Origin: Sulfitobacter sp. SK012
GTDB lineage: Bacteria; Pseudomonadota; Alphaproteobacteria; Rhodobacterales; Rhodobacteraceae
Reading direction: 5' to 3'
NCBI RefSeq assembly: GCF_003352085.1
Contig: NZ_CP025804.1
Location: 2,232,001-2,296,000, forward strand
Length of the DNA stretch: 64,000 nucleotides
Under the pieces are notes generated by a model. The model was given only the letters and a program-made list of their open reading frames with translations, made no database searches and was not told where the DNA came from. Below, in pieces: positions 45,736 through 63,154 of this stretch. A program made the translations under genes and the position numbers. Within the stretch, counting starts at the first letter, position 1; every line of letters starts with the position of its first letter.

Positions 45736-45750
45736 TTGGCGGAGAGACAG
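45736..45750 (-). other. Left attachment site (tRNA-Ser 3' end duplicate)
   Basis: TTGGCGGAGAGACAG is identical to 63064-63078, the 3' end (including CCA) of the tRNA-Ser at 63066-63154, in the same orientation. It lies 166 bp left of the integrase start. Confidence 0.75.
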
Positions 45751-45916
45751 TCCGCTATACTAGGGTCTAACCTTGTCCGAGATAATCCACTTTTTCTCAA
45801 TATAAGATAAGATTTACTTCCAATCTCGTCTAAAAAAGTCTACTCTAATCCACAACTTTATGTGGGATAGAATGTTGGTTTATCCAATTTGATGTGGGAT
45901 GGGATGGGGGGCTGAT

Positions 45917-47230
45917 ATGCCTAAACGTGCAAAGGGATTGACCGCCGGTTTTTGCAGCACTGTCAAAGCGCCAGGCAAGCACAGCGACGGAGATGGTCTA
46001 ATGTTGGTGGTATCCGACAGCGGCGCAAAAAGATGGGTTCAAAGGTTAGTGATACGCGGTCGGCGGCGCGATATTGGCTTGGGAGCCTACCCCTTAGTGC
46101 CGCTCGCCAAAGCCCGTGCAGCCGCAGCGGAAAACCGGGGCGTTGCGCGCGCAGGCGGAGACCCGTTAGCCCGGCGCGATGAAGATTTGTCCCTTCGCAC
46201 TTTTGATATGGCTATGGTCGACCTTCTCGCCAAAAAGGCCGGTGAACTCAGCAATGCCAAACATATTGCGCAATGGGAAAGCACACTGCGGACTTATGCG
46301 GTGCCTCGGCTTGGGAAAATGCGAGTATCTGAGATTACTGTCACGGATATTGTCGAGGTTCTTTTGCCAATTTGGAAAACCAAGAATGAAACGGCAAGTA
46401 GATTGCGCGGCAGGATCGAAGCTGTTTTCGCATTTTCAACTGCGAGCGGTTGGCGATCTGGACCCAACCCCGCAACGTGGGGCGGCAATTTGGACATGTT
46501 GCTGCCTAAGCCATCGAAGGTGAAGAAAGTTGTCCACCAGCCCGCGCTTCAAGTCCGCGATGCTCCATTCTGGTTTGATGAACTTGCGCAGCGGCGAGGA
46601 TCATCCGCAAGATGCTTGGAGTTTCTTGCGCTTACGTGGGTCCGCAGCGGTGAAGCCCGTGGTGCCAAGTGGTCGGAAATTGATTTGGACAAAGCGATAT
46701 GGCGCATTCCTGCAAGCCGAACGAAGACCAAAGAGGAGCAGATGGTCCCGCTCTCACTCGCTGCAATCGGTCTGCTGAGGGGCATTCCTCGCGTTCGCGA
46801 GGCAAACGACAAAGGTGGCGATCTGATTGACGTGGACTTGGTTTTTGTTTCCCCGCGAGGCGGCCAACTAAGCGATATGGCGTTGTCGGCTGTGATGCGG
46901 CGACTTCACCAAGCGGATTCGTATGATCGTGATTTATACAAAGCTAGAGGTTTGCTTGAGCATCAAATTGGATGGTTAGACGAGAGGTCCGGCCGGCCCG
47001 CTGTGCCTCATGGCTTAAGATCGACTGCGCGAGACTGGGCAGGCCTGCAAGGTTACCCAAGGGAACTGGCGGAGCTATCCTTGGGTCACAGGATCGGAAA
47101 CCGCGTTGAGCAGGCCTATCATCGGGATAGCTTATTGGAGCGCCGCCGGCCTATGATGGAAGCGTGGGCGCAATATCTGCTTAGCGAAAGATCCGGCCAC
47201 ACCAATTCGATTGGGCTGCGAGCAGTTTGA
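45917..47230 (+). CDS. int: Tyrosine-recombinase integrase (P4 type, DUF4102)
   Basis: A 437-residue integrase starting at 45917 after a G-rich ribosome site. Residues ~5-80 form the DUF4102 N-terminal domain (LTAGFCSTVKAPGKHSDGDG; RLVIRGRRRDIGLGAYPL). Residues ~95-185 are the core-binding domain. The catalytic domain has the Arg in TWVRSGEARGAKW, the H-x-x-R box HGLRSTARDWA, His in SLGHRIGNRVEQ and the Tyr in QAYHRDSLLERR. It is intact and sits beside the short tRNA-Ser duplicate, so it is the likely enzyme of the 45.7-63.1 kb island. Confidence 0.92.
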   Translation: MPKRAKGLTAGFCSTVKAPGKHSDGDGLMLVVSDSGAKRWVQRLVIRGRRRDIGLGAYPLVPLAKARAAAAENRGVARAGGDPLARRDEDLSLRTFDMAMVDLLAKKAGELSNAKHIAQWESTLRTYAVPRLGKMRVSEITVTDIVEVLLPIWKTKNETASRLRGRIEAVFAFSTASGWRSGPNPATWGGNLDMLLPKPSKVKKVVHQPALQVRDAPFWFDELAQRRGSSARCLEFLALTWVRSGEARGAKWSEIDLDKAIWRIPASRTKTKEEQMVPLSLAAIGLLRGIPRVREANDKGGDLIDVDLVFVSPRGGQLSDMALSAVMRRLHQADSYDRDLYKARGLLEHQIGWLDERSGRPAVPHGLRSTARDWAGLQGYPRELAELSLGHRIGNRVEQAYHRDSLLERRRPMMEAWAQYLLSERSGHTNSIGLRAV

Positions 47231-47376
47231 TGTGGGGCGATTCACAACTCTTCAGCCCATAATCCCTTATTTAGCTGCGCTTCTTCGCGAATGTTTCCGC
47301 CATGCTTGTCCGTGCATTTGGCGAGAGATGTATTCAGCCCATTCTGGGTCTCTCAATACTATTTAGGAGATCTCTC

Positions 47377-47610
47377 ATGAGCAATGCACGAATACATAGC
47401 CGAGTACTAAAACTTAAAACCGTTGTGGAAACTACCAGTCTCTCAAGGGCAACCATTTACGTGATGATGGGGCGCGGCGAATTTCCGAAACCGATCCGCT
47501 TAGGTCGCCGTGCGGTCGCTTGGCGCGAAACAGACGTTCTCAACTTGCTGTCTAGCCGCGCAACGGTTTCTTACCCGGAAACTGAGCAAATGGGGGCAGC
47601 TAAACTATGA
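47377..47610 (+). CDS. AlpA-family transcriptional regulator
   Basis: A 77-residue protein with a MerR-like helix-turn-helix of the phage AlpA type (TVVETTSLSRATIYVMMGRG; FPKPIRLGRRAVAWRETDV). The start at 47377 follows AGGAG (47364). AlpA proteins regulate integrase and excision genes of P4-type elements. First of three genes joined by 4-bp overlaps. Confidence 0.88.
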   Translation: MSNARIHSRVLKLKTVVETTSLSRATIYVMMGRGEFPKPIRLGRRAVAWRETDVLNLLSSRATVSYPETEQMGAAKL

Positions 47611-47948
47611 TCCCACCATTCAAAACCCCGCCCGGTTGGCGAACCGGGGCAGGGCAATTTCGAGGTTTGTCTGATGCTCATTCTGACCCTAAAAAACTAT
47701 CGCAATTCACCTTTGAAGTCGAGCAAGAAGACGAAGTACGGCTCATTCAGATTGCCTCTGGTGATCGTGAATTGCTTGGACGGATCTGCAACGCACCCGG
47801 CGGCCTAAATGTCTCACAGTCTGATTGGCAGTCCATTGAAAATCTGGCCCGTGCAGGTTTTCCGGTCACAATGACCGCTGGCAGTGAGGCGGGCACGCGG
47901 ACGGCTTGCCTTTCGGACACCGCACGGCTTCGCGAGGTCTACCAATGA
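47607..47948 (+). CDS. Small hypothetical island protein
   Basis: A 113-residue protein whose ATG overlaps the AlpA-type gene stop (ATGA). It is polar, with no signal peptide or membrane helix, and ends TARLREVYQ. No family was recognised. Tight coupling to AlpA-type and helix-turn-helix neighbours suggests a role in element maintenance or transfer. Confidence 0.6.
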   Translation: MIPPFKTPPGWRTGAGQFRGLSDAHSDPKKLSQFTFEVEQEDEVRLIQIASGDRELLGRICNAPGGLNVSQSDWQSIENLARAGFPVTMTAGSEAGTRTACLSDTARLREVYQ

Positions 47949-48406
47949 CCAATAAGCGCAGACCCGGATTCTACAAAGCTCCTAGGTGGATGTTTCAAAA
48001 CAATCCGCTGAGTTCTGATGAGCGCTTTCTGCTGATGTATTTCGACAGCCACGATCAGGATATTTGGCTGCACCATGAACCGATAGTGTCGGCAGATATT
48101 GGTTGGGGCAGGCAGAAGTTTTACAGGGTCCGCCGATCGCTCGTGAACCTTGGACTACTACGGACGGAGAAAGTTCGAAAAACTGACCCTGAAACCGGCA
48201 AGGTTGTTATAATTGGCTTTCGCGCGTTCACGTATCTAAATGCTGAAAATCATAACTTAGATAACAGACCTAAGTGTCGAATATCATCATCATCAAAATC
48301 ATCACAGTTAAGTAGACCAACTACTAAGGGGGCGCACTCCGGTCCTGACGTTATCGATGATGGAGACGTTGTAGCGTTTCCAGACGTTAGGGCGCATCCA
48401 AGATGA
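47945..48406 (+). CDS. Helix-turn-helix protein, replication-initiator-like
   Basis: A 153-residue protein whose ATG overlaps the previous stop (ATGA). Residues ~10-85 resemble a winged helix of replication initiator or phage regulator type (KAPRWMFQNNPLSSDERFLL; IGWGRQKFYRVRRSLVNLGL). The C-terminal third is Ser-rich and acidic. Last gene of the three-gene element operon. Whether it replicates the element or only regulates it is open. Confidence 0.6.
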   Translation: MTNKRRPGFYKAPRWMFQNNPLSSDERFLLMYFDSHDQDIWLHHEPIVSADIGWGRQKFYRVRRSLVNLGLLRTEKVRKTDPETGKVVIIGFRAFTYLNAENHNLDNRPKCRISSSSKSSQLSRPTTKGAHSGPDVIDDGDVVAFPDVRAHPR

Positions 48407-48601
48407 CAGGTCTGTTTTTCGTGGAAACGGTGTGGCGCTGCGCTTGCGGTATAGGTCGCACTTTCGCACAGAGGTTGATCTGCGGTTTCACCCCGAATGC
48501 ATATGCTGAGAAGCCGTGTCGTTCGCCTCCAGGACGCGCATCACAGTCAGCCAATTCCCAAGCATTTAGCTACTTCTAGGGTCAGGACCCATTAAATCTA
48601 A

Positions 48602-48960
48602 AAGCGTCAAACGCCACAAAGCGGACTTTGATGCGCTCCGCAGCGAACGGCGGCTTGGAGCCCTTTGTGACCAATGCTGCACCATGCACATTTCGACACT
48701 AAGGGCGGATTGCGGACTTTCGCTGCGCGTTGCATCAAGGTCTGCTATGGGGGGCAAAGCGGCCTGATGCAAATGCAGCAGACATTGCTACGGCAGACCG
48801 GTCGAAACAGCGATCGTGTCGCGGCAGTGCAGCACAAATTCCCCGAAGCGGACGTTCACTACGGACAAATTGGCTGAAATTCAAACCGGTCGTTCGCTGC
48901 GTTAGTGCCCAATGTCTCAGTTGCCGGACGGAACAGTCCTTCGTTGCCCCTGCAGCGAAT
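48602..48960. repeat. Dispersed non-coding repeat, copy 1 (complete)
   Basis: About 360 bp without coding features. It shares a 47-bp block (48664-48710) with 55004-55050 at 46 of 47 positions, and the following ~250 bp match 57609-57840 in the same order (CAAAGCGGCCTGATGC against CAAAGCCGCCTGATGC, the ACCGGTCGAAACAGCGATCG region, and AATGTCTCAG against GATCTCTCAG). Short inverted motifs GCGGAC and TTCGCTGC recur within it. Confidence 0.7.
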
Positions 48961-48990
48961 TTTTGACCCCGATGTCCGATACTGCCTTAG

Positions 48991-50298
48991 TCAGATATTT
49001 TGAATAACTAGAATCGCACGTTGCACCGTCCAGAGCGCGGCCACTGCAATGCAAGGCGCAGCTATACCCCAACGCGCCACCAGCCAGCCCCGCTCTCCCA
49101 ACCGCGACAAAAAACGAAACAAAGGCCAGCAGGCAAGGATAATCAAAAGCTGACCAATCTCGACACCGATATTGAACGATAAGAGGCTTTGCCAGATATT
49201 AGGGGAATCGACTTGCAGAATCTTGTGCAGCACAAACGAAAACCCCAGACCGTGCAGGGTGCCGATTCCGGCTGTGACGGCAAACATTGTTAGTTCTGGT
49301 GGTTGGTGTCCCTTTCTCTGCCTCACCGCCACGAGGGCTGCGAAAATGATTGACAGGGCGATCCCCAACTCGATTGTTGGAATAAACCACGCCCCCGAGG
49401 GCACCAGCCCGAAAAAGCCAAGGCTCAGCGTTACACTGTGACCGATAGTAAATCCGGTCGTACGAGAAAACAGGCTTCTGAAACTCACGGCACCCAATGC
49501 CAGGCAGATGACAAACAAGACGTGGTCAAGACCCTCCAGAATGTGGAGCATGCCTTCTTTGATGAACGTGATGGCAGCGGCCCATGGCGACCTCGAGATT
49601 GGAATCGGGTCGTCCAGCAGACCGCGTGCTCGAAATACCTCAACGCTGCCAGGGTAATAATCAAGAATTAGATTGGCTGTTTTCTCCTGCCCAGGCAAAC
49701 CGGGATTGAGCGAACTGGACACATTATAGGATGTCGCAGCCCCCTGGTTGGTGAATAGAAGGACCGTGTCGACAACCGTGTCGCTGACGTAGGTTACCGG
49801 AAATTCTGGCGGATAAAGCGCGCTCTGAAACGAAGCGCGGGCTTCATCCAAAGTCGAAAATGGTGGTTGGCGGGATCCGGGGTACACCCTGACGGTTTCA
49901 ACCCGCGCCTGCAAAACAACGCCGTCGCCGATAAACTGATGGCCGTCCGCCACCAAATCGCCGAGTCCGCCAGGATCAGCCTGCAATGCCTTTGCATCAA
50001 GGTAATAGACGACATTCCCATCCTCTCGGATGTTGGTCGTATAGGGCGCGGGTTCTGGTAAACCTTCGGGCAGATCAGGGCCAACCAGATTGGCAACAAG
50101 ATAGGGCATCGGAAGGCGCAGATAGACCCGCAAGCCATTGCTCAGATGTTCGACATGAATAATGCGCGTATTCAGATTCAACAAAAAATGCGCGGCCGTC
50201 TGGCCAGATGCCAGCAGCAGGACGCACAGCAGTGCTGCAGAAACCACGGTCGACAGCTTGAGGGGCCGACGGCCAAGTTCTACGAACTTCAACAGCAT
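48991..50298 (-). CDS. HupE/UreJ-type membrane protein with large periplasmic domain
   Basis: A 435-residue protein. An N-terminal signal/anchor (LSTVVSAALLCVLLLASGQT) and ~200 residues of periplasmic beta structure precede a C-terminal HupE/UreJ_2 domain of 6-7 helices. Signature histidines are present in EGLDHVLFVICLALGAV, FTIGHSVTLSLGFF and TLHGLGFSFVLHK, with FNIGVEIGQ near the end. HupE/UreJ proteins move nickel, cobalt or other metals. The start at 50298 lies 5 bases after the upstream gene stop, so the two are coupled. The metal specificity is unknown. Confidence 0.85.
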   Translation of the reverse strand: MLLKFVELGRRPLKLSTVVSAALLCVLLLASGQTAAHFLLNLNTRIIHVEHLSNGLRVYLRLPMPYLVANLVGPDLPEGLPEPAPYTTNIREDGNVVYYLDAKALQADPGGLGDLVADGHQFIGDGVVLQARVETVRVYPGSRQPPFSTLDEARASFQSALYPPEFPVTYVSDTVVDTVLLFTNQGAATSYNVSSSLNPGLPGQEKTANLILDYYPGSVEVFRARGLLDDPIPISRSPWAAAITFIKEGMLHILEGLDHVLFVICLALGAVSFRSLFSRTTGFTIGHSVTLSLGFFGLVPSGAWFIPTIELGIALSIIFAALVAVRQRKGHQPPELTMFAVTAGIGTLHGLGFSFVLHKILQVDSPNIWQSLLSFNIGVEIGQLLIILACWPLFRFLSRLGERGWLVARWGIAAPCIAVAALWTVQRAILVIQNI

Positions 50299-50302
50299 CT
50301 CT

Positions 50303-51804
50303 TCAGGTCTCCGGCTGGGCACTTGTTACAGTCATACCAGTCAGCTTCCATACGCCGTCAATCGGTGCGATATCCATCAAAGCGCCAAAGTGGATGGTCT
50401 TCTGGTGTGGATGTCCCCAGTGATTTCCGGACGCCGTCACGCTCCAGTTCACCGTTGCCATAAACCCGGCTCCCCCGGATGCGGGTGCAACATTCGTCAC
50501 AACAAGGTCCCGGATGCCACCGATCGTCCCAACGCCCCCGCCTTGCATCTCAATAAGCAGAGCGCGGGAGAGTTCTTGTTTCACGTCTTCAAAAGAATCT
50601 TCTGAAACACTGACAATTAAAGCATCATCCAACCGTTCGGGTATCTTTTCTTGCAACCCCTTGTGAAAATTTTCGATCAAATGACCGGTGATACGCGCGG
50701 CAGCAGGGTCATCAGGCACTCCTGCGACAGGGTTAACGACCGTGACCCAACCAAATTGGGTTGATACACCCGTGACCGCAACCAGAACCCCTACAACGCC
50801 AATTCTGCGAGCGACAAGAACGGACCGCCTCCGGCTCAGAAGAGCCGCCACACCCAAGGTGAGTGCGGTCAGAAAGATCGTGAGGATAGGCACGTCGACC
50901 GTGCGCTCTTTGCCATAGACAACAGGCGCGATAATCGGCGGCTCGTAGGTTTTGAAGAAGTTGACCCAGGTCAATACCGAGTCGTCCGGAGTGAGGTCTG
51001 CTAGGAATGGGCCAGCGGCGTCCGTGGCATTGCCCGGAACCTTAATGACAGGTGCGGGAAACACAGTCCATTCGACTGTCGCTTTCTGGGCATATCCGTC
51101 TGTGGGGATCGAATAGATCAGACCGACAAAGTCTGCGTCTGTCAGAATTTCATCATCGTCTCCGAGAAAATTCAGGCCTCTAGTTCCAATGCGCATAAAA
51201 CTGAGGCGATCAAAAGATGGGACGATTTTTTCACCTTCAACCGTCATTGGCGAGCGTTCATTCAAAATCGAGGGCAGACGTGTTTCGAACTCTTTGCGCT
51301 CAGCCGCTGTCATGGTCCGCCCTGCAATCGACACACCAGCCAACTTGGCGGCGTTACGCACCCGGATAAGGGCTTCATGACGGATTTCGTAGGGTGTCGC
51401 ATACAAAAATGTCTGGATAGGAAAGCGATAGTGACGCCGCAACGTCGTGTTTTCAAAACGGCTATACCAAGGGTCGCTCCAGTCGATGTTCAGCGTTTCT
51501 TGACCAGACAAATAGCGAAAATCAATCACCGGAACGTCACGGTCATAGACGATCATACCTGTTGAGGCACGCAAACGTCCGTCTTCATCCATCGGCGGCA
51601 CTATCGTTACTTGCTCGGGGCGGGTGCCCTCGAATGAATAGAAAAGCTCCGCGTAAAGCACGCGTTTGTCATTTGGTGGGGCTGGAACGATTTGCCCACT
51701 TGTCGGGTCGCGCCTGCCCGCAAGCGGCGAAGCGCGATCGACCCTTGTTCTCGACTCGACCAGTTCTGCGGTCACGGTTAGCGGAGCGCCATCAACGCCT
51801 CGAA
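50303..51804 (-). pseudogene. HupE-partner protein truncated by IS21
   Basis: An open frame runs from 50303 up to the IS21 edge. It reads GVDGAPLTVTAELVESRTRV just inside the edge with no ATG, so the natural start and signal peptide are missing; the first usable start is GTG at 51775. The protein has ~300 periplasmic-type residues, two helices near 305-345 (VDVPILTIFLTALTLGVAAL; ARRIGVVGVLVAVTGV) and a C-terminal domain of ~130 residues. It is adjacent to and coupled with the HupE/UreJ-type gene, suggesting a membrane complex. Function unknown. Confidence 0.65.
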
Positions 51805-51888
51805 TGTGTCAATCCCGGAGTAAAATCGGTCAGCGTCCCGGAGAGAAATTGGCCAATTTGTCAGCTCCTTGGCTTCAGTTGGGTTTGT

Positions 51889-52653
51889 TCAGGCTGTGCG
51901 GTTTCGGCTTTGGTTCAGCCGATAGCTTTCACCATTCATCTCCAGGATATGGACGTGGTGTGTCAGGCGGTCGAGGATGGCACCCGTGAGGCGTTCTGAT
52001 CCGAAGACCTCTGTCCATTCATCGAACGGCAGGTTGGATGTGATGATGATGGAGCCGCGTTCATATCGTTGACTGATCACTTCGAACAGCAACTCGGCCC
52101 CGGTCTTGGAGAGTGGCACGAACCCAAGTTCGTCAATGATCAGCAAATCTTGGGCTGCTAGTTGTTTTTGGTGTCGTTGCAGTCGGCGTTCGTCAACTGC
52201 CTCGATCATTTCATGAACCAGTGCAGCGGCTGTGGTGAAACGTACCTTCAAGCCCTTTTGGCAAGCTGCCAGTCCAAGGCCGAGAGCAACATGTGTTTTA
52301 CCGGTCCCACTTGGTCCTAGCGCGATAACGTTTTGACGCTTTGCGGTGTACTCGCAGCGGGCCAATTCCATCACCAGCACCTTGTTCAGTGACGGGATCG
52401 TTTTGAAGTCAAAGCTATCCAGGCTCTTGGTTGCCGGAAACTTCGCGGCTTTGATACGCCGCTCTACCATCCGTCGCTCACGTTCGATCAGCTCCAGCTC
52501 ACACAAGCGCAGGAGATATTGGACATGATCCTTGTTCTCTGCGGCGCATTGTTGGGCCTGTTTGGTGTATTCGCTTTGGAAGGTTGGCAGCCGAAGTTTG
52601 GTCAGGTGATGCCTGAGCAGAACCTGCGGTGTATCAGTAACAGTATCGTTCAT
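51889..52653 (-). CDS. istB: IS21 helper ATPase IstB
   Basis: A 254-residue AAA+ ATPase. Walker A is GPSGTGKT at 113-120, Walker B is LLIIDELGF near 170, and the N-terminal IstB domain spans ~10-75. It helps IstA choose the target. The start overlaps the istA stop by 4 bp. The gene is intact. Confidence 0.93.
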   Translation of the reverse strand: MNDTVTDTPQVLLRHHLTKLRLPTFQSEYTKQAQQCAAENKDHVQYLLRLCELELIERERRMVERRIKAAKFPATKSLDSFDFKTIPSLNKVLVMELARCEYTAKRQNVIALGPSGTGKTHVALGLGLAACQKGLKVRFTTAAALVHEMIEAVDERRLQRHQKQLAAQDLLIIDELGFVPLSKTGAELLFEVISQRYERGSIIITSNLPFDEWTEVFGSERLTGAILDRLTHHVHILEMNGESYRLNQSRNRTA

Positions 52654-54158
52654 GCGGCCACCTCGGACAACAGCACGGCATAGCTGGAAGGCTTTGTCGT
52701 CTCAACCACCGCTTTCGGCAGATAAGGATAGATATCGAGATCAAGCCTAGGCGGACGACGCTCAATCCGGCAAAGGATCAGATGCTTGATCGCATCGTAG
52801 CCAAGTGCGCCCAGGTCCAAGGCTTGTTTGATTGCAGCATGAACGTGCTCCATCTCGAAGGTTTCCAATAGTCGCAAGATCTGAACATATTCGCGCTTCC
52901 CCGCCTTACCCATGCGGGCTTCCAACAATCGATGAAGGGTCGTGAACGCATCGGGCAGATCCCAACCCTGCAAGGGTGCCGCCTGGTCGAGAGCACCAAC
53001 CTTCTGCTCCAACAATGGCAAGTAATGCATCGGGTCGAAAATCATATCTGCCTTCTCGTAAGATCGTCGATGTCGGGCGACAATCTCGGTCCCACAGCCG
53101 ATCACGACCTCATGGACATAGCCGCGTACCTGAACCTCATGATGGGCAAAGGCGACAGGGACGGAGTAATCGTTATTGCGATAACGGATCATCGATATTG
53201 AAGTTGCCCGAGTACTGACCTTATCACACGCATCGTAAGGTGTTGGGGGCAATGCCATCAACGCGTCCAGGTCTCGTAGCAACCGTTCACCAATACTCTC
53301 ACTATGCCCGCGAACAACATCGTCCTGACGCTTCAAACATTGTTCCTCCAACCAGGCGTTCAAAGCATCAAAACTATCGAACCGGGGAGCAGGGATTAGG
53401 AAGTTCCTCCGTCCGTAGCCAATGACACCTTCGACATTACCTTTGTCGTTACCTTTACCAGGGCGGCCAAACCGGTCCTCAAACAGATAATGCGATTGTA
53501 GTTCCGAGAAAGTTCTGGTCCGGATCCGCTTGCCTCCTCCCAAGATCTTTGCAACCGCTATCACGGTGTTATCGTACAGTGCCGACAAGGGCACACCACC
53601 GAAGAACGCAAACGCAGCGTTGTGACCATCACAGAAGGCTTCTGTCGTTTCTGCCGGATATGCCTTCATGAAGAACGCATCCGAATGCGGCAACGATATC
53701 GCAATGTAATGCAGCTTTCGTTCAACACCACCAATCACACCAAGGGTCTCGCCAAAATCGACCTGAGCATGGCCAGGGGTGTGAACCAGAGGAACAAACA
53801 CCTCTTGGGTACGTCGCTGCTTCTCACGAACATAGTCCGTGACGATGGTGATCCCGCCAGTGAACCCATGTTCATCACGCAATCGCGCATGAATACGTTT
53901 GGCTGTGTGGCGTTGCTTTTTGATGACCCGTTTATCGTCTTTCAGGATCTGATCAATTATCCCAATGAACGGATCCAACTTCGGACGAACTGGCGCGGTC
54001 GTTCTTTGATAACCCGGCGGAACCGAATGCTTCAAAATCTTCGCCACTGTTTTGCGGTCAATCCCAAACAGACGGGCCGCCTCACTATTGTTCTTACCTT
54101 CGACATGGCACGCACGGCGCACCCGACTGTACAAATCCACAGAATACATCTTCCCCAC
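52650..54158 (-). CDS. istA: IS21 transposase IstA
   Basis: A 502-residue transposase. An N-terminal helix-turn-helix (GKNNSEAARLFGIDRKTVAK) is followed by the DDE catalytic domain with GHAQVDFGETLGV near 135 (first Asp), LYDNTVIAV near 195 (second Asp), and the Glu region around 275. It is intact, suggesting the element can still move. Confidence 0.92.
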   Translation of the reverse strand: MGKMYSVDLYSRVRRACHVEGKNNSEAARLFGIDRKTVAKILKHSVPPGYQRTTAPVRPKLDPFIGIIDQILKDDKRVIKKQRHTAKRIHARLRDEHGFTGGITIVTDYVREKQRRTQEVFVPLVHTPGHAQVDFGETLGVIGGVERKLHYIAISLPHSDAFFMKAYPAETTEAFCDGHNAAFAFFGGVPLSALYDNTVIAVAKILGGGKRIRTRTFSELQSHYLFEDRFGRPGKGNDKGNVEGVIGYGRRNFLIPAPRFDSFDALNAWLEEQCLKRQDDVVRGHSESIGERLLRDLDALMALPPTPYDACDKVSTRATSISMIRYRNNDYSVPVAFAHHEVQVRGYVHEVVIGCGTEIVARHRRSYEKADMIFDPMHYLPLLEQKVGALDQAAPLQGWDLPDAFTTLHRLLEARMGKAGKREYVQILRLLETFEMEHVHAAIKQALDLGALGYDAIKHLILCRIERRPPRLDLDIYPYLPKAVVETTKPSSYAVLLSEVAA

Positions 54159-54290: not shown

Positions 54291-54722
54291 TCATGGGGAT
54301 GTGCCCTTGCTTTTGGTATCTAATTCAATAACACGCTCCAGCGTGCCTAGAAGGTTATCGAGCCCCTTACCGAGTGATGCCTTCATCTCCGACTGCGCCT
54401 GTGTCCAAAGCGGAACCGCTTTCACAAGCGCCGCGCAGCCCGCTGGGGTCAGTACCACGCTGCGCGCCCGCGCATCCGCGCAAGTCGGCAAAACCAGCAG
54501 ACCTTGACGCTCCAGCACCTTAAGGTTTCGCCCAAGCGTGCTGCGGTCCAATCCCACAAGTTCAGCCAACTCGCTGATCGTTGCGTCGGGGTTGGCTTCG
54601 ATCTGGCGCAAGAGGCGAAACATTGTCACCTTTAGGCCGGACGGTGCTAGCACCCTGTCATAGAGAGCAGTGCTGGCCTGAGCGGCCTGACGCAGAGACG
54701 TGCAAATACATTTGTCACTCAT
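54291..54722 (-). CDS. MarR-family transcriptional regulator
   Basis: A 143-residue regulator. The winged helix includes ATISELAELVGLDRSTLGRN (60-80) and the wing LPTCADARARSVVLT. Two Cys at the N-terminus (DKCICTSLR, residues 4 and 6) could make it redox-responsive. A perfect 20-bp palindrome ends 4 bases before the start codon and is its likely operator. The gene it would normally control is not present on either side: an IS21 end lies 30 bp downstream, and the upstream side holds only a repeat. Confidence 0.88.
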   Translation of the reverse strand: MSDKCICTSLRQAAQASTALYDRVLAPSGLKVTMFRLLRQIEANPDATISELAELVGLDRSTLGRNLKVLERQGLLVLPTCADARARSVVLTPAGCAALVKAVPLWTQAQSEMKASLGKGLDNLLGTLERVIELDTKSKGTSP

Positions 54723-54725
54723 AAT

Positions 54726-54745
54726 TTACGGGTATATACCCGTAA
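54726..54745. promoter_or_regulatory. Perfect 20-bp palindrome, MarR operator
   Basis: TTACGGGTAT and ATACCCGTAA are exact mirror halves. The site abuts the MarR start (54722) and would block transcription and possibly translation when bound. Size and symmetry fit a MarR dimer. Confidence 0.8.
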
Positions 54746-54962: not shown

Positions 54963-55050
54963 TGCCGTTCGCTGCAAAGGCCATCAAGGTCCGCTATGGG
55001 CCGTTTGTGACCAATGCTGCACCATGCACATTTTGACACTAAGGGCGGAT
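54963..55050. repeat. Dispersed repeat copy 2, left part
   Basis: It begins TGCCGTTCGCTGCAAAGG and ends in the 47-bp block shared with copy 1 (55004-55050). The match stops abruptly at 55050, where IS91-type sequence begins. The remainder is found at 57609-57840. Confidence 0.75.
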
Positions 55051-55179
55051 GGACTAAGCCGCTCGCGCGGCAATGGCGTTTGTGGCTGGTGGTGCGCGCT
55101 GACCTCCACCGGGCTCATTTTGTGATCTGACGAACCTGTCCGACGATTGAGGCTCTCAATCCAAGGACAGGAGGCTTCC

Positions 55180-56067
55180 ATGAGGGACGATAGAACGACG
55201 CCGCTGCGTGAGCGGATGATTGAAGATATGCGCATCCGTGGGCTAAAGGAGACGACGCAAAAAGGGCACATCCGCGCGGTTAAGAACTTCGCTGCGTTTC
55301 TGGGTCGACCACCGGACACAGCTACGCCAGATGAGTTGCGCGCCTATCAGCTACACATGACAGATACAGATGTATCGACAGCGAGTTTCAACACCCGGAT
55401 CGTCTCTTTGCGGTTGTTCTTCGGCGTGACCTGCGGGCGCGAAGAGATGAAGCGGTACATGCAGTTCCGGCGCAAGCCGAGGAAGCTGCCGGTCGTGCTC
55501 AGCATCAAGGAGATCGGCGACTTGCTGGCAGCTGTTCCCGGACCCGGGCTGAAGTACCGGGCCGCGCTCGGGATTAGCTATGGTGCAGGGCTGCGGGCGT
55601 CCGAAGTTTGCCACCTCAAAGTGGCCGACATCGACAGCGACCGGATGTTGATCCATGTCGACGAGGGCAAGAATGGCAAAGACCGTAAGGCGATGCTGTC
55701 GCAGAAGCTTTTGGACCTGCTGCGAGACTATTGGCTCGAGGCACGACCCGAGGGCTGGCTATTTCCCGGAAAACCCAAGATCAATCCGTTGTCACCACGC
55801 CAGCTCAATCGCGCCTTCACCTCGGCAAAGCACATGGCTGGGATCAACAAACCGGCGACACTGCATACTCTGCGGCATAGTTTTGCGACCCATCTGCTGG
55901 AGGCCAATACCGATGTGCGGGTGATCCAGGTCCTGTTGGGTCATTCCAAGCTGAGCACGACAGCGCGCTACACCCACGTCGCCACCAAGACGATCCGCAA
56001 TACGGTCAGCCCGTTCGACAACCTCAAACAGTTGCAGGATCACACGCTCCGACGAGGGTTGGAGTGA
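55180..56067 (+). CDS. IS91-associated tyrosine recombinase
   Basis: A 295-residue phage-type integrase. The start at 55180 follows AGGAGG and the previous in-frame start adds no family sequence. Residues ~15-95 are the SAM-like core-binding domain (TTQKGHIRAVKNFAAFLG). Catalytic residues are Arg in GAGLRASEVCHL, HTLRHSFATHLLE and the Tyr in TTARYTHVATK. Such recombinases accompany the transposase in one branch of IS91 elements. The next gene starts 12 bp downstream. Confidence 0.88.
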   Translation: MRDDRTTPLRERMIEDMRIRGLKETTQKGHIRAVKNFAAFLGRPPDTATPDELRAYQLHMTDTDVSTASFNTRIVSLRLFFGVTCGREEMKRYMQFRRKPRKLPVVLSIKEIGDLLAAVPGPGLKYRAALGISYGAGLRASEVCHLKVADIDSDRMLIHVDEGKNGKDRKAMLSQKLLDLLRDYWLEARPEGWLFPGKPKINPLSPRQLNRAFTSAKHMAGINKPATLHTLRHSFATHLLEANTDVRVIQVLLGHSKLSTTARYTHVATKTIRNTVSPFDNLKQLQDHTLRRGLE

Positions 56068-56079
56068 CGCTCGGGGCCG

Positions 56080-57273
56080 GTGTCTCGTCCGAAGCTAGAG
56101 ATTGCTGACATTTTTCGAAAGTACGGTCCCGCATGGCGGCAGGCCAATGCTGGGCATATCAGCCTCAGCCAGCTCAAAGTGATGTCAGCCATTGGAGCCT
56201 GCCGAACTGAGGCGCTCGGCGGACATGTTGCCGCTTGCACCAAGTGCGATCACCAGCACATCGCCTATAATTCCTGCAAGAACCGGCATTGTCCAAAGTG
56301 TCAGGGACCAGCGGCAATCGACTGGATGGCTGCGCGGGCTGAAGACCTGCTGCCCGTGGAGTATTTCCATCTGGTCTTCACACTCCCCGCCGGGATCGCC
56401 CAGATTGCCTACTGGAACAAGAAAACGATCTACGGACTGCTGTTCCGCGCCTCAGCCGAGGCGGTGACCACCATCGGTGCCGACCCCAAGCGCCTCGGCG
56501 CACGGGTTGGCATGACCAGCGTTTTGCATACTTGGGGATCGGCGCTGACCCACCATCCCCATGTCCACATGATCGTGCCCGGCGGTGGGTTGTCGCCCGA
56601 CGGCACCCGTTGGGTCGGCTGCAAGCCGGGGTTCTTTCTGCATGTACGGGTGCTGTCGCGTCTCTTTCGCCGCTTGTTTATCGAAGGTCTATTAGCACTA
56701 CACCGGGCAGGAGAACTGACATTCTTCGGCGATCTTGCTGGGCTGTCAGGTACCGATGTCTTCACTGGGTGGCTCGCCCCGTTCTGCAAGTCCGAGTGGG
56801 TGGTCTATGCCAAACCTCCCTTCGGTGGTCCCGAAGCCGTGCTGGCCTATCTCAGTCGATACACCCACCGCGTCGCCATCTCGAACGCCCGATTGGTCTG
56901 CGCGGACGCCAAGACCGTGGCTTTCAGCTGGAAGGATTATCGGATCAAAACAGGCGACCGCCAAAAGGCCATGCGCCTGGCTACCAGCGAGTTTATTCGC
57001 CGATTCCTGATCCACGTCCTGCCCGACGGCTTCCACCGCATCAGGCACTATGGCCTGCTGGCCAACGCGACCCGAAAGACCAACATCGCCAAGATCCGAA
57101 CCCTGCTTGAGGTGGAGCAACCCGATCAAGAGCCACAGCAAAGCGCTGAGGTGATCCCGCTTACACTGCGCGAGCCATGCCCATGCTGTGGTGGGCCGAT
57201 GCGTATCGTGGAGATATTCCGTCGAGGACAACAGCCAAGATCAAGGGCACCACCAAGGGAGCAGGCCGCATGA
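56080..57273 (+). CDS. tnpA: IS91 family transposase
   Basis: A 397-residue rolling-circle transposase starting on GTG at 56080. The N-terminal zinc domain has ACTKCDHQHIAYNSCKNRHC and CPKC. The HUH motif is HHPHVHMIV at 158-166, and the catalytic tyrosine lies in YLSRYTHRVAIS near 278. A C-terminal CPCCGG pair ends the protein. It is intact. Confidence 0.92.
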   Translation: MSRPKLEIADIFRKYGPAWRQANAGHISLSQLKVMSAIGACRTEALGGHVAACTKCDHQHIAYNSCKNRHCPKCQGPAAIDWMAARAEDLLPVEYFHLVFTLPAGIAQIAYWNKKTIYGLLFRASAEAVTTIGADPKRLGARVGMTSVLHTWGSALTHHPHVHMIVPGGGLSPDGTRWVGCKPGFFLHVRVLSRLFRRLFIEGLLALHRAGELTFFGDLAGLSGTDVFTGWLAPFCKSEWVVYAKPPFGGPEAVLAYLSRYTHRVAISNARLVCADAKTVAFSWKDYRIKTGDRQKAMRLATSEFIRRFLIHVLPDGFHRIRHYGLLANATRKTNIAKIRTLLEVEQPDQEPQQSAEVIPLTLREPCPCCGGPMRIVEIFRRGQQPRSRAPPREQAA

Positions 57274-57608
57274 CAAACCGCCCGTCACTCTCGTCTACCA
57301 TGCCCCGGTCCAACTACCTGTTCCGGCCCGATCTCTATATGCTTGGCGTTCAGATATGGACCAAAGTCAAAGCTGTGGAACCCAAATGGCCCTCAGATCG
57401 CTCAGCTGCGTGCCGGTCAGAGGATGCCAATAGCGCCCGCTATCAATCAGGATGCCGATCCGACGAGAAGTCAAACCCAACCGTCAGCTCACTTTCCCCA
57501 TAGACAGTTCCCAGCCCCCCGCGGCTTCCTCCTTCCGGGGTTTGTCAACGCGGGCCGCCATCACTTGGCGGCAGTCGTAACGCCGCGGCCCTCATCGAAA
57601 AACCTTCA

Positions 57609-57840: not shown

Positions 57841-57940
57841 TTTTAGCATTTTTGCGTCAACTAAGTTAACCGAGCTAAAGCATGAAAAACAGGGATGGCT
57901 TCGGCCAAATCGATTTTCTGTCCATCAGCTCTAATGTTTT

Positions 57941-58354
57941 TCAGGGAAGGCTGGGCTTTGGCGCAGGATCCTGCAGTGACTCTAGGTAGTTTGCGATCTC
58001 GATCAGCTTAGTGGGCATAAGGAACGGATTGCCATTTCCCGGATCGAACTCACTCATGTCATGGTCCAAAATGTCGACAATAACGGGCATATCTTCCCGG
58101 GGTTGAGTATTGCGTGAATACCCACTCAGTATCTCCATAATCTCAAGCGCGGGCCAAATACCGTCGCGCCGGGCTGCAATCTTAGTCAAGTCCGCTGGCG
58201 CTGCGCTCAAACGCGCGGCTGCAGGCCCATCGCCCTTCCCATCAACACCATGACAAGAAACGCAATTTTGCATGTAGAGTGTTTTGCCGGCATTTGTGGT
58301 TTCTATGGTGGTTCCCATCAAAACTAACGGAACCAAAAGAGGCCAATGCTTCAT
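57941..58354 (-). CDS. Small periplasmic cytochrome c
   Basis: A 137-residue c-type cytochrome. The N-terminus MKHWPLLVPLVLMGTTIETT is a signal peptide, and the haem site is CVSCH at 31-35. A likely axial Met occurs in REDMPVIVD near 87 or in FLMPTKL near 112. Single gene inside the island between two repeat copies. Electron partner unknown; the island has no other redox genes. Confidence 0.8.
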   Translation of the reverse strand: MKHWPLLVPLVLMGTTIETTNAGKTLYMQNCVSCHGVDGKGDGPAAARLSAAPADLTKIAARRDGIWPALEIMEILSGYSRNTQPREDMPVIVDILDHDMSEFDPGNGNPFLMPTKLIEIANYLESLQDPAPKPSLP

Positions 58355-58569
58355 AAGGGAGGTCTTTCTGAAACTGTGCGTTACAGTTAACGCTTACGCA
58401 AAACGGATACTTTGATCCTGGTCAAGTGACCGATCATGGATCAAGCAATGAGAGATTGCAGCTATGCGCATCCAAATGAGCGCACGCGGGAATACTTCGC
58501 GAGTCATAGGGGTTCTGGGTCGGGTTCCTGCTCTGCATTCCTAGAACGACGGCTTCCGTCGAAAGCAGG
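58355..58569. other. Short non-coding stretch before repeat copy 3
   Basis: No coding features. The A+T-richer part from 58370 to 58430 may hold the promoter of the cytochrome gene. Confidence 0.3.
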
Positions 58570-58780
58570 CTGTCAGAAAATGGCCGCGAAGGTCCGAGTT
58601 GCAGGACAAAGCTTCCTGTTGCAGATGCAGCGTAGATTATGAAGTTGGCACGTGGCCTAGACTCACAAGTTCTGAGGCAGCGCAGCGCAAGTCCCCAAAC
58701 TGGACGCTCGCAGCACAGATGTCTTATGTCTCAGTTGCGGGACGAAAAAGCTATTCGTCGTTTTTGAATGAGCTGGCACG
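58570..58780. repeat. Dispersed repeat copy 3 (diverged)
   Basis: Segments CCGCGAAGGTCCG, GCAGGACAAAGC, CTGTTGCAGATGCAGC and TGTCTCAGTTGCGGGAC appear in the same order as in copies 1 and 2 but with more changes and gaps. Confidence 0.5.
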
Positions 58781-58824
58781 AATGATTTGCGGCAACTATC
58801 TAAGACAGCCTGAAAACACCAAGA

Positions 58825-60168
58825 TCAGCCTTTGCTCGCAATTTCGTCGTTCTCCAACCCGTCGTTTGAAATCGCACCTTCTATCGCGGTATCTATTGTT
58901 ACATCGTCTTCGTACTCGTCCACCTGAACCTCAAGTGCCTCTTCGATAACTTCGTCTGAGGGGTTGGCATCGCGTATGGCGTCAACGACCTCTTGCTCTT
59001 CTTCAGAAAGACGCATCCCTGGATCCTCTGATCCTGGTAAATCGCTTTTGTATTGGGCCAAAAGCGCATCTTCTGCGTCGAGGACCGCCTCGTTGGAAGG
59101 CGGTCCTTCCTCGACGATGTTGTTCGCTTCGTCGATTTCTTCCTGAGTCGGTGCGCCGTTCTCATCAATGAGGTTTGCCGCGTCTACAACCCTTTGAACT
59201 GTGTCTTCAACGGCATCTACCTTTGCTTGTGCTTCGCTGACTTCTTCAGGTGTGAAGGCATCCGGGTCAGCGAGAACAGCTTGCGCATCAGAAAGCTCTT
59301 GTGTTGCTTCGGATGCAGTATCTACCTTAGTTTGAGCTTCTTTTACCTCTTCAGGTGTAAACGCATCCGGGTCAGCGAGAACAGCTTGCGCATCGGCAAG
59401 TTCTTGAACTTTTTCTTCCGCAAGGTCTACGACGGCGTTGGCCTCATTGAGTGCTTCGACAAGATCTAATGTTTCCTGTGCCGACGCGAGTTCCGTCTCA
59501 TATTGGTCCAGAGCGCCCTCGTAATTGTAGTCCGCCACTGCGAGTGCTGCCGCCAAGCTAACCGGCCCTTTCCCACTCGCGTACTGGCCGTTGGCGATGT
59601 GTGCCGCCTTGGCGTTGGGGCTTGAATTTATCGCGCCGTTCAACTTGCCGAGATTACTTGGATGCAATGGATCCAACTTGAAGCTTGCAGGTTTAACAGG
59701 TGGTCGTTTGGACTGTGTAACGGTCACATTCGATGTTTTTTTGCTAGTTGATTTTGTAACGGTGCCTGATTTTGTAGCAGTGCGTTGCGACTTCTGACCT
59801 TTGAACAAGCCGCCGAGGCCATTCTTCTTCAGATTGCGGCTAAAAGCTTTGAAATCGTCTTTAATCGCGCGGCCTTTGCCCTTGTTAGATTTTCCACCCT
59901 TGCCGGCCTTGGAAGACTTGGTTTTGTTGCCCTTGTCGCCACCGTTGGCTTTGCTGTTATCACCTCCGTTGCCAGCGCTGTTACCGCCACCTTTGCCGCC
60001 ACCGCTTCCATTCCCGCCGCCTTTGCCACCACCATTCCCGCCGCCGTTGCCTCCACCGTTTCCGTTACCTGCATAGGCGTAATCTGCGCTGAGAACAGAC
60101 GCGATGGGGGCTACAACAAATGCAGACAGGGCTAGAGCAGAGACGCTTATTCGGAGAAAGTTCAGCAT
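58825..60168 (-). CDS. Secreted Gly-rich, coiled protein of unknown function
   Basis: A 447-residue protein starting at 60168. A signal peptide (MLNFLRISVSALALSAFVVA) is followed by a Gly/Asn-rich tract (~35-80, repeats of GNGGG and GKGGG), a Lys/Ser-rich basic segment (~80-150), and an acidic Ala/Glu helical C-terminal part (~220-447). The element AQAVLADPDAFTPEEV occurs twice in tandem (~285 and ~315) followed by EAQTKVD / EAQAKVD. Charge changes from strongly basic to strongly acidic along the chain. No family was recognised; a cell-surface or matrix role is plausible. Confidence 0.6.
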   Translation of the reverse strand: MLNFLRISVSALALSAFVVAPIASVLSADYAYAGNGNGGGNGGGNGGGKGGGNGSGGGKGGGNSAGNGGDNSKANGGDKGNKTKSSKAGKGGKSNKGKGRAIKDDFKAFSRNLKKNGLGGLFKGQKSQRTATKSGTVTKSTSKKTSNVTVTQSKRPPVKPASFKLDPLHPSNLGKLNGAINSSPNAKAAHIANGQYASGKGPVSLAAALAVADYNYEGALDQYETELASAQETLDLVEALNEANAVVDLAEEKVQELADAQAVLADPDAFTPEEVKEAQTKVDTASEATQELSDAQAVLADPDAFTPEEVSEAQAKVDAVEDTVQRVVDAANLIDENGAPTQEEIDEANNIVEEGPPSNEAVLDAEDALLAQYKSDLPGSEDPGMRLSEEEQEVVDAIRDANPSDEVIEEALEVQVDEYEDDVTIDTAIEGAISNDGLENDEIASKG

Positions 60169-60701
60169 AGCAAAAATTACCTTCGCATTAAGATCAGGGG
60201 CGCGCGTACAATTCTTCTGTCGCGCCGAAACACTCATTCATAACTATGTCGAAATTTAGGTCAGACCCAAATGGGGGCCATTCAATTGCTGCTCGTCCGA
60301 TAGTAGCCTCACTAAGTTGACTATCCAACTGGGGGCTCAAGCCACTGAAATAGCTTGTGCATCGACGTTTCGAAAATGGCATTTTCCTGAGTCGGGTCCA
60401 AGTTTACCCCGCGGGGCCGCCTCAATTCCGCACTGATCCCAATGTGACCAATTCTGCTTCCGCAGGCTTTTGTAGGCATGAGTGGGTAGGAGGCATTGGG
60501 CCCAGTTGGTGCTCCTCGCCACGATTATGACAATGATGCATCCCTGCGCCAAGCTGCGGCCTATGGCCATTATTCCTTATAAGCGAGCGCGGCTAGAGAG
60601 GCAGAACAGACGGGTGCCATAAATCTGACTTCATGAAATCGCTATTCTGCCCCATTACACTTTTACGAAATGAGTCGCCTCAATTCAACAAAGGACCTGC
60701 C
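60169..60701. other. Divergent intergenic region
   Basis: About 530 bp between two genes that start outward. No gene was recognised. It should contain both promoters; no operator or riboswitch stands out. Confidence 0.4.
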
Positions 60702-61616
60702 ATGAACACGATATATTTTGAGATTACTGACGGCGATGTAAAAGTAGGTATCTCGATTACGGAACAAGCGGACGGATCGCTACTTTTCGACTTGGATGTG
60801 TTGGACGATACCGGCACAATTGGCGATCTCAACGGATTGTTCTTTGATCTGGCTGACGATTCCATCACAGACAACCTGATTTTATCGGGTACTGATTTGA
60901 CGGGACAAAATATTGACGCCAATTCAGTGTCCAAGGTTGATGGCTACAACAATATCAATGGCGATGTCGTCAAAGAGGATGGAAAATTCGACGTTGGGGT
61001 GCAGTTTGGTACTGCAGGGATCGGTGCAGATGACATCCAGTCTACGTCTTTTACCCTTGCAACCTCTGATGGATCAACCCTGTCACTGGCAGATGTTTTG
61101 AGCCAAGACTTCGCTGTTCGACTAACATCCGTTGGCGAGATGGACGGCGATCGTGCCGACTCTGTCAAGATCAGCGGCACATCCGATCCAATAATCACTG
61201 AGCCACCTGAACCCACAAACCTCGCCGTGGACAATACCATGACGGTTTCGAACACTGAGACCTTTAGCGAAGATGACATGCCGGATCCGCTTGATGGTTT
61301 TTTTGTATTTAGCTTGTTGGAAAACGACAGCACAGGTGATTCACAACCCTATATAGGCGACGTTGTCACAGTAAACGGCGATGCGTTGGACGCAGGCACA
61401 AGCTATTTGGGCTCAAACGGAGGGCTGTTAATGGTGAACTCCGACGGAACAGTCGATTTCTCCGCGAATGGCGAGTTCGATACTCTTATGGGCATGGAAA
61501 CAGCCAACACCCAGTTCACCTATGGAATCGAAGGCGGATCAACAGCGACCTTGGATGTTGAAGTCATTGCCTTTGATGACGGGGGAGGAACGGGTGAAGA
61601 CATATTTGTGATTTAA
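60702..61616 (+). CDS. Acidic calcium-adhesin-like secreted protein
   Basis: A 304-residue acidic protein starting at 60702 after AAAGGA. Residues ~1-165 form a beta domain that begins NTIYFEITDGDVKVGISITE, of the type seen in large secreted adhesins of marine alphaproteobacteria. Residues ~190-290 resemble a cadherin/VCBS-like beta domain (FFVFSLLENDSTGDSQPYIG). There is no signal peptide, and the C-terminus GGGTGEDIFVI fits type I secretion, although RTX nonapeptides are nearly absent. Probably a short type I substrate; function unknown. Confidence 0.6.
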   Translation: MNTIYFEITDGDVKVGISITEQADGSLLFDLDVLDDTGTIGDLNGLFFDLADDSITDNLILSGTDLTGQNIDANSVSKVDGYNNINGDVVKEDGKFDVGVQFGTAGIGADDIQSTSFTLATSDGSTLSLADVLSQDFAVRLTSVGEMDGDRADSVKISGTSDPIITEPPEPTNLAVDNTMTVSNTETFSEDDMPDPLDGFFVFSLLENDSTGDSQPYIGDVVTVNGDALDAGTSYLGSNGGLLMVNSDGTVDFSANGEFDTLMGMETANTQFTYGIEGGSTATLDVEVIAFDDGGGTGEDIFVI

Positions 61617-61632
61617 TCGTTCTCAAACCTAA

Positions 61633-62826
61633 GTTGACGCCGTCCCTTATGCGAGTCTCGGTTTTGTTGGTTCAAAGGGTTGGACGGTAGTACTTGCGCT
61701 GCTGCTGCTTCTGTACCAGCCCATTTTTCCGGTACAATTCGACTACCATTGGTGGCTTTGGATTGATCTAACCGCGTTTTGTGTCCTAGCGCTCCACACT
61801 TGGACCGTCTCAAAGCCTCTTTTCGAATTGTTGAGCTCCGCAGTTTCGAGGGGTGAAAACCCGCTAACCGTCCCACTGGATCTTGTGACCGCCGCAGTTT
61901 TCCTTGGGTATACTAACGCGGCATCACTTATGGCGAAGGCTGCAGAAGGCCTACAAGAAGAGCAAAAAAAACCGGCTAAGGGCCCGAAAGAAAAAGGCCC
62001 CCGCGAGGTTAACCCTGCCTTCGTTCAGCCTCCGCCGGCAGCGGTACAGCCGCCGCCTCGACCGTTATCAGATCCTCTTTATGCCACTTCGAATTCCCGC
62101 ACATTGAGCGAACAGATTGTTGAAGCAGAAAAGTTAGTCAGGAAAATTCAGGCCGCGCTGGCTGCCTCGAACTTACCCTTGGACAGGCAACTGGAGTTGG
62201 AGCAGTCTTTACAAGCATCCCAATGCGAACTGGACAGACAACTGGCGCTGGAACTGTCGATACAGAAGGCCAAACCCCTAATCGCGGATAGAGAACCACA
62301 GAGGCAGACGATCCCTTCACCTGCCAAATGGGCACCCCATACGGAGAGGCCAACCGAAAGTCTGCCGGATGAGCAGAAAAAACTGACCAAGAGCCCTGAA
62401 CAAAAAAACCTTAGCAAATCAAAGTCAGCCCGCGCCGGGGATTCTGAACCCGGTACGGCGGATCTCACTGACACGAAGATCGAAATCCTAAAAGTTAAAC
62501 GCACGCAGATGGTTGAGGCGCTCAAACGCACAACGAAAATGAAACGCGCTCCTGCTGGAGCACGAAGTTCTAGATTGAAAGAGGGCGCGTTTGTTCCGGA
62601 ACTCGTTGGCTTCCGAGTGGAAATGCCAGGCGGGTCTTCACTTGTCGACCTTGAAGAAGGTCGCTTGGAAAGAGAAGTCGTGTTTGTTGCCGCGAAGATG
62701 GAACCAGTTCTCAAAGTGCTGAGCAGTTACGATGGAGCCGACGATATGGTCGATATCAGCATCGGCGAGACTGAGATCGTTTTCCGCTGCGGTTCTTCTA
62801 AACTGACTATCCCCAAATACGTCTAG
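61633..62826 (+). pseudogene. Two-helix membrane protein, start missing
   Basis: Codons in this frame look coding from 61633 (just after TAA at 61630-61632): a hydrophobic TVVLALLLLLYQPIFPVQFD, then LWIDLTAFCVLALHTWTVS, a long charged helical linker with repeats (LPLDRQLELEQSLQASQCEL, DRQLALELSIQ) and a C-terminal ~90-residue beta domain. No ATG or GTG is in frame near the beginning; TTG at 61828 would discard both helices. An ATG at 61649 in the next frame followed by a one-base shift would supply MRVSVLLVQRVGR. Either the 5' end was lost or a frameshift is present. Confidence 0.5.
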
Positions 62827-63065
62827 AATGATAATTTGAAAAATTGTGGAGAAGTGCCGCGAGCGTGTGAGACGACTATCAGATCAGCCGAGCAGAATTT
62901 ACCCCCACCCCCCCCCAAAGCAAGGAATGCCTACCCCGTTAGAATCGTATGATAAAGCAAGCTCGTCCCTTCTCTCGATGAAGAGCGTTGTGGGCTCTTA
63001 TGTGGTCTTAACTTGTCGAATTCCCATAATTTACCCATGCAATCAAATATTTAGGCTAAGTAATT

Positions 63066-63154
63066 GGCGGAGAGACAGGGATTCGAACCCTGGGAACGCT
63101 TGCACGCTCAACGGTTTTCGAGACCGCCCCGTTCGACCACTCCGGCACCTCTCC
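63066..63154 (-). tRNA. tRNA-Ser (anticodon CGA)
   Basis: The minus strand folds as a class II tRNA: acceptor GGAGAGG paired with TCTCTCC, then G and encoded CCA. The anticodon loop is CTCGAAA (CGA, reading UCG codons). A long variable arm TGCAAGCG region and T-arm CAGGGTTCGAATCCCTG follow. Its 3' end is duplicated at 45736-45750, marking it as the island attachment site. Confidence 0.92.

Follow-up and report, generated by a model that had tools for sequence, protein, structure and literature searches.

A probable 17,328-bp genomic island at tRNA-Ser(CGA) of Sulfitobacter sp. SK012, with its integrase far from the tRNA

The window analyzed here, a stretch of 64,000 nucleotides from Sulfitobacter sp. 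SK012 (contig NZ_CP025804.1; G000:C1:2232001-2296000), contains a block at positions 45736-63078 with a P4-type integrase near its left end and an intact tRNA-Ser(CGA) at its right end. This arrangement raises the questions of whether the block is one inserted element and why its integrase lies so far from the tRNA. The block is quite probably a site-specifically integrated genomic island, a single unit at these ends, and it is a tRNA-Ser island of a known kind. As no empty site was found, its delimitation follows from the terminal repeat, the orientations, the anatomy of the attachment site and a pattern shared by the integrase family. The far-end position of the integrase may be explained by a reversed overlap within the attachment core. 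The features that define the two ends are the following:

45736..45750, minus strand: left attachment site, displaced 3' fragment of tRNA-Ser(CGA) (exact repeat)
45917..47230, plus strand: P4-type tyrosine integrase, 437 amino acids (Pfam domains, motifs, family comparison)
63064..63078, minus strand: right attachment site, restored tRNA-Ser 3' end plus one base (exact repeat)
63065..63154, minus strand: intact tRNA-Ser(CGA) (tRNA search)

Both ends of the 17,328-bp island (45736-63078) carry exact copies of one 15-mer, at 45736-45750 and 63064-63078. Fourteen of its 15 bases are the 3' end of tRNA-Ser(CGA), which is intact on the minus strand at 63065-63154, and its first T lies one base past the tRNA. 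In the 5.18-Mb genome the 14-mer TGGCGGAGAGACAG occurs exactly twice, at the two island ends, and three places match it with one mismatch. Shuffled versions of the window contained the 15-mer with up to two mismatches 0.17 times on average, and at least two copies were seen in one of 100 shuffles. Between the left repeat and the start of the integrase lie 166 bp (a further in-frame ATG is present at 45899). The integrase contains the domains Arm-DNA-bind_3, Phage_int_M and Phage_integrase, a set which we take to mark P4-type integrases; its RSGEAR, HGLR and LGH...AYHR stretches presumably represent the catalytic motifs. Compared with the NCBIfam model PRK09692, it scored 116.6 bits, under the curated cutoff of 434. 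The 15-bp tRNA-Ser direct repeat, the position of its second copy at the 3' terminus of an intact tRNA-Ser(CGA) and the complete P4-type integrase 166 bp inside the left copy, all named in the original prediction, were thereby recovered, the integrase with its three expected domains.

Matches to this integrase were obtained in 42 of 60 genomes and, at an E value of 1e-60, in 82 of 295 genomes of the family (own genome included in both counts). The layout of 66 related integrases in 64 stretches was surveyed, and an integrase was assigned to the far end if a downstream tRNA on the opposite strand had its 3' end repeated at most 450 bp upstream of the integrase. Thirty-nine integrases showed this layout, seven lay beside the tRNA, two beside the tRNA but displaced, and 18 in neither position. 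In the seven classical cases, an intact tRNA is located directly upstream and in the same direction as the integrase, and the two displaced ones are read as of the classical type, displaced by a far-end island. For 40 integrases a suitably placed tRNA was present in the stretch examined, and 39 of these exhibited the far-end repeat; of the integrase matches listed for the family, 40, mostly the best-scoring ones, were taken into the survey, so that this ratio describes close relatives. In the far-end islands, the tRNA 3' end is repeated over at least 14 nt, and the distance from this repeat to the point downstream at which the integrase match begins is 144-280 bp, with a median of 162; the 14 nt and 166 bp of the window fit this family. 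A 12-nt tRNA end in the opposite orientation was found in none of the same 40 upstream windows, and 12-nt matches in 450-bp windows elsewhere in these stretches were limited to one of 1867 window-tRNA pairs.

The targets of the 39 far-end islands are tRNA-Ser (27, comprising four isoacceptors), tRNA-Arg(ACG) (six), tRNA-Glu (two) and tRNA-Met, tRNA-Gly, tRNA-Cys and tRNA-Ala (one each). Their sizes range from 3.9 to 34 kb with a median of 10.8 kb, and the 17,328 bp of the window island fall inside this range. In repeat, orientation, integrase and spacing the window island agrees with 38 others, each bounded by a tRNA and its 3' fragment with the integrase adjoining the fragment, and these relatives strongly support its interpretation as a tRNA-Ser island of the far-end type. 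The original prediction had also called this integrase position less common; the position itself was confirmed, and among close relatives of the window integrase the far-end layout is the commoner one (39 far-end, seven beside the tRNA). More distant P4-type integrases (L263, L266, L268, L269, L272) likewise lie at far ends, at tRNA-Leu or tRNA-Thr and with other arms. In a Tateyamaria isolate (L128), a copy of the 14-nt tRNA-Ser(CGA) end is located 8.4 kb away, and no integrase of the window family was matched there; this tRNA end may also serve as a target for integrases of a different family.

The repeats also reveal a common anatomy. Read as a core, the left repeat consists of an arm, TGGCGGA, and an overlap, GAGACAG, followed by TCCGCTA at 45751-45757 as the arm on the element side. 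In far-end islands, the 14-nt repeat is followed by seven bases that approximate the reverse complement of its first seven, with a mean over the 39 of 5.62 matches out of 7. This value was reached only at a spacing of 7; other spacings from 3 to 13 gave means of at most 2.38, and 1000 shuffles of the right arm at most 3.23. Three loci (L175, L177, L178) came from a search for symmetrical motifs, which biases the arm score, and without them the mean is 5.53 over 36 islands. An arm-overlap-arm pattern is that of a tyrosine recombinase core. An overlap of 7 bp has been described for lambda and proposed for SGI1 (PMC2297512). On this reading, the shared 14 nt would represent one arm plus the overlap in far-end and classical islands alike. 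When genomes were searched for the pattern itself, palindromes appeared in 24 of 62, the reversed-pattern control gave matches as well, and some of the palindromes (L170-L174 among them) had no related integrase adjoining.

Classical islands provide the counterpart. The far end was located in six of the 11 examined, at sizes of 19 to 58 kb, with 14 nt common to both ends; for the other five, at most about 12 kb beyond the tRNA were covered. In these six islands the overlap is reversed relative to the integrase when compared with far-end islands. At tRNA-Ser(TGA), for example, far-end islands (L091, L092) have the overlap GGAGGTG when read from the integrase side. The classical islands G029 and G011 have CACCTCC, and their integrase-side arm is TCCGCCA.

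A model can be proposed in which a circular form of the island would have been inserted into the tRNA-Ser(CGA) 3' end through recombination by its integrase (45917-47230). The core of the circular attachment site (attP) would read TGGCGGA-GAGACAG-TCCGCTA, that is, a 7-bp overlap flanked by two 7-bp arms in near-inverted orientation, to which the integrase would bind. Exchange at the overlap, with the cleavage points as presumed here, would have restored the tRNA at the right end, and the displaced last 14 nt would now mark the left end. Because near-symmetrical arms leave the direction of the overlap as the main asymmetry of the core, the overlap may set the direction of insertion, and its reversal relative to classical P4-type islands would let the integrase land far from the tRNA. 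Judged from sequence comparison, the view that the landing end depends on overlap direction is slightly favored. A similarly narrow preference applies to the fuller proposal, according to which the attP arms bound by P4-type integrases of this group are near-symmetrical, the direction of the 7-bp overlap alone decides polarity, polarity switched at least three times on the integrase tree, shifts between isoacceptors proceed by overlap change with the arms kept, and int is thereby placed out of reach of the tRNA promoter. Among the titles listed in searches of open-licence literature, none deals with an overlap-direction rule for tRNA islands, which is weak evidence of absence. The island may still be mobile at present.

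Tandem arrangements and an integrase tree bear on this proposal. In G011, an 11.2-kb far-end island lies between tRNA-Ser(TGA) and a classical island, whose integrase is at the junction. The 14-nt core is present three times, as would be expected if a second element had inserted precisely at the tRNA. In G017, a pair of integrases faces apart across the core, and the outer end lies beyond the sequence examined. In both genomes (L092 in G011, L098 in G017), a far-end and a classical-type integrase, divergent from each other, thus stand back to back at one tRNA-Ser. The tree, built by a quick method, contains 51 integrases; L196, with 80 amino acids to its first stop, was dropped, and nine rows carry no label. 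Twenty-three rows were labeled far-end by the upstream motif alone, for ten of which the tRNA was later confirmed (of the other 13, 11 showed no such tRNA in the later stretches and two lie outside the stretches compared), and L092b and L098b were labeled classical though their tRNA is displaced. With these labels, the tree implies three or more changes of layout. The window integrase falls within a set of 34 (support 99), whose labeled rows are all far-end except L204; it sits on a long branch, and its exact place is unsure.

Several observations weigh against the island reading or against the pattern from which it draws. Eighteen of the 66 integrases show neither layout, 17 of them without a suitable tRNA in the stretch examined, and L229 has a downstream tRNA-Ser(TGA) without the repeat. 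The sole classical case in the part of the tree that holds the window is L204 (L255), whose far end is lost to a contig end. The element-side arm reads NCCGCC in only 26 of 39 far-end islands, the arms of L253 (tRNA-Cys) match in one of seven positions, and a hand count for classical islands gave 4 to 6 matches out of 7 in their far arms. The flanks add to this. The original prediction had proposed that related genomes be checked for an empty tRNA-Ser; among 49 loci around tRNA-Ser(CGA), comprising 15 same-genus stretches of 18 kb and 34 named loci, the left flank (45240-45750) was unmatched at an E value of 0.01 and no empty site was seen. Some of these loci come from the same genomes, and for several named loci the coverage on the tRNA side falls well short of 10 kb. 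FtsJ and Ppx/GppA, the usual 3' neighbors of the tRNA, are located about 190 kb away and inverted (G000:C1:2484698-2492202). Finally, 212 bp left of the repeat lies a 217-bp remnant of a tRNA-Asn/tRNA-Cys 3' block (45307-45523).

The displaced and inverted neighbors indicate that the region was therefore rearranged, before or after the insertion. Given this rearrangement and the flank mismatch, a plain insertion into an ancestral site cannot be shown. On the 3' side of tRNA-Ser(CGA), FtsJ is present in nine of the 34 named loci. The right flank, with its DUF2059 gene, is conserved, as it is matched over at least about 500 bp in 21 of the 23 other genus genomes searched. A rearrangement breakpoint was noted at the tRNA itself, on the tRNA-Ser(CGA) side (63065-64000). 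Comparison of proteins with the tRNA-Ser(CGA) loci returned only distant matches, to genes elsewhere in the window, apart from the IS21 proteins in L117. The left flank was rejected as a core landmark, because part of its RTX-repeat gene (43716-45236) has a copy elsewhere in the genome (1 kb, 97% identical to G000:C1:4013217-4014253). The remnant at 45307-45523 is 92% identical to G000:C1:2134032-2134248, a block with an intact tRNA-Asn, and 88% identical to 2032864-2033071; it is a relic of other insertions or of rearrangement. Older remnants may already have been present next to the insertion site, or the left flank may have moved later. Two further observations concern other islands in this genome. 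About 101 kb separate a tRNA-Asn fragment, with an integrase adjoining it, from the intact tRNA-Asn (G000:C1 2033016-2134269), and this block is possibly a second far-end island. Within the window, an integrase N-terminal-like fragment with in-frame stops (21930-22217) is a remnant of another island.

Between the integrase and the tRNA, the island contains the following genes:

47302..47610, plus strand: AlpA-type regulator (Phage_AlpA 1.5e-16)
47607..47948, plus strand: hypothetical gene (no Pfam match)
47906..48406, plus strand: hypothetical gene (no Pfam match)
48991..50322, minus strand: HupE/UreJ-like membrane protein (HupE_UreJ_2 2.9e-34)
50303..51775, minus strand: 490-amino-acid protein without family (Pfam scan, genus search)
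51889..54158, minus strand: IS21-family IstB/IstA pair (IstB_IS21 2.3e-77, Mu-transpos_C_2)
54291..54722, minus strand: MarR-family regulator (Pfam scan)
55043..57288, plus strand: IS91-family element (ends estimated from plasmid matches)
55147-56067, plus strand: tyrosine recombinase within the IS91-family element (domain search)
56080-57273, plus strand: transposase within the IS91-family element (domain search)
57941..58354, minus strand: cytochrome c domain protein (Pfam scan)
58825..60237, minus strand: hypothetical protein with internal repeats (open reading frame list, Pfam and repeat scans)
60633..61616, plus strand: hypothetical protein (Pfam scan, genus search)
61828..62826, plus strand: hypothetical protein (open reading frame list, Pfam scan)

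The AlpA-type regulator (47302-47610) is likely an excision factor, and AlpA-like matches occur somewhere in 28 of the 58 loci searched. Two insertion sequence (IS) elements had been predicted in the cargo and are present, namely the IS21 IstA/IstB pair (51889-54158) and the IS91-family transposase with its tyrosine recombinase (55147-57273). A 47-bp repeat with one mismatch (48664-48710 and 55004-55050), whose right copy abuts the IS91-family element, is perhaps an IS91 end or a duplicated target. The claim that all cargo is non-core stands for the two genes compared across the genus, both of which appear accessory from this comparison. For the 490-amino-acid protein (50303-51775), the 61 other genomes of the genus yielded five short matches and none of full length; the one full-length relative returned by this search is a 35% paralogue encoded in the same genome, at 2123707 inside the 101-kb tRNA-Asn block. 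The protein at 60633-61616 was matched in 19 of the 61, at best with 58% identity over most of its length (G001), the remaining 18 matches being shorter or weaker.

Pfam searches of the 15 island open reading frames (ORFs) detected no relaxase or type IV secretion genes and no primase/helicase replication or phage structural domains, and by this content the island is neither a P4-like satellite phage nor an integrative conjugative or mobilizable element. A PADLOC search of nine proteins for anti-phage cargo returned weak helix-turn-helix matches of the MarR gene and nothing else, a search for plasmid relatives of the left part of the island gave three short matches and no more, and a consensus promoter scan upstream of int gave no match. 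The guanine-cytosine (GC) content of the island is not distinct from that of its flanks. Proteins other than the integrase and AlpA had almost no match in the other island stretches, the exceptions being the IS21 proteins in L086 and weakly in L239, and one distant HupE match in L246.

The scarcity of shared cargo lends itself to another explanation, in which the integrase end is an old island and the right part (57941-63063) came from other events, so that the block grew by accretion and is not one unit. The two IS elements, the 47-bp repeat beside the IS91 end, the near absence of protein matches beyond the integrase and AlpA in other island stretches and the rearranged chromosome nearby are all consistent with such a composite. 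It is nevertheless unlikely, as the genome holds exactly two copies of the attachment core, none of them inside the block, the size lies within the 3.9-34 kb of the 39 islands, and variable cargo is normal for islands. A second alternative takes the integrase to stem from a tRNA-Asn island, with the remnant at 45307-45523 as the true attachment site and the tRNA-Ser repeat as a chance occurrence. It draws on the 217-bp tRNA-Cys/Asn block just outside, 92% identical to the intact tRNA-Asn block, and is very improbable: the distance between the tRNA-Ser repeat and the integrase is that typical of the family, the repeat shows the core with inverted arms, and the single intact tRNA-Asn detected in the genome is situated to the left, which is the wrong side for such an island. 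That the 15-bp repeat is a chance match in ordinary chromosome can practically be dismissed, since the repeat, though short and set in a region with GC content like its flanks, is exact and unique in the genome, the family pattern is strongly contrary, and no full-length relative of the 490-amino-acid cargo gene turned up in the 61 other genus genomes.

Taken as a site-specifically integrated unit, the island itself is ordinary in kind. The comparison that it opened offers a simple, testable rule to predict on which side of a tRNA island the integrase is found, together with 39 islands with matched attachment cores. For island finders, a short tRNA fragment adjoining an integrase would, in the genomes compared here, predict a tRNA several kb away. 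The rule also bears on the regulation of int, as a far-end layout would exclude expression of int from the tRNA promoter of the kind seen in ICEKp1.

Among systems with which the island can be compared, the PAPI-1/pKLC102-type islands apparently likewise carry the integrase far from the tRNA, and Bxb1 is a serine recombinase with an unrelated mechanism. The PAPI-1/pKLC102-type islands are large conjugative elements, unlike the window island, and PAPI-1 uses tRNA-Lys genes (PMC2704930). The tRNA islands of Islander share with it an intact tRNA, a same-orientation 3' fragment downstream and an integrase inside, at sizes of 2-200 kb, which include 17,328 bp (PMC4383910). The fragment lies outside conserved coding domains, with ORFs of at least 80 amino acids ending at 45236 and starting at 45899, and the crossover would fall between the T stem and the acceptor stem, as in the J class of Islander. 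In contrast to these islands, the window integrase adjoins the fragment and not the tRNA; the available text on Islander states no rule for its position (PMC4383910). VPI-2 of Vibrio also combines a P4-like integrase, insertion at tRNA-Ser and flanking att repeats, but measures 57 kb and carries other cargo (PMC10487451). ICEKp1 is similarly an integrase element in a tRNA gene, there tRNA-Asn, and the host tRNA promoter drives its int while it is integrated (PMC13023037). In the window, int ends 16 kb from the tRNA, which is transcribed on the opposite strand; judging from this map, the tRNA promoter therefore cannot drive int. The attP of SGI1 resembles the proposed core in its putative 7-bp overlap between imperfect inverted repeats, whereas its target is not a tRNA, and the relation of overlap direction to integrase position is not treated in the accessible part of that report (PMC2297512). 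A parallel to the proposed role of the overlap is found in Bxb1, in which, according to the title of a study cited in PMC12884075, the orientation of insertion is set by the center of the site, its central dinucleotide.

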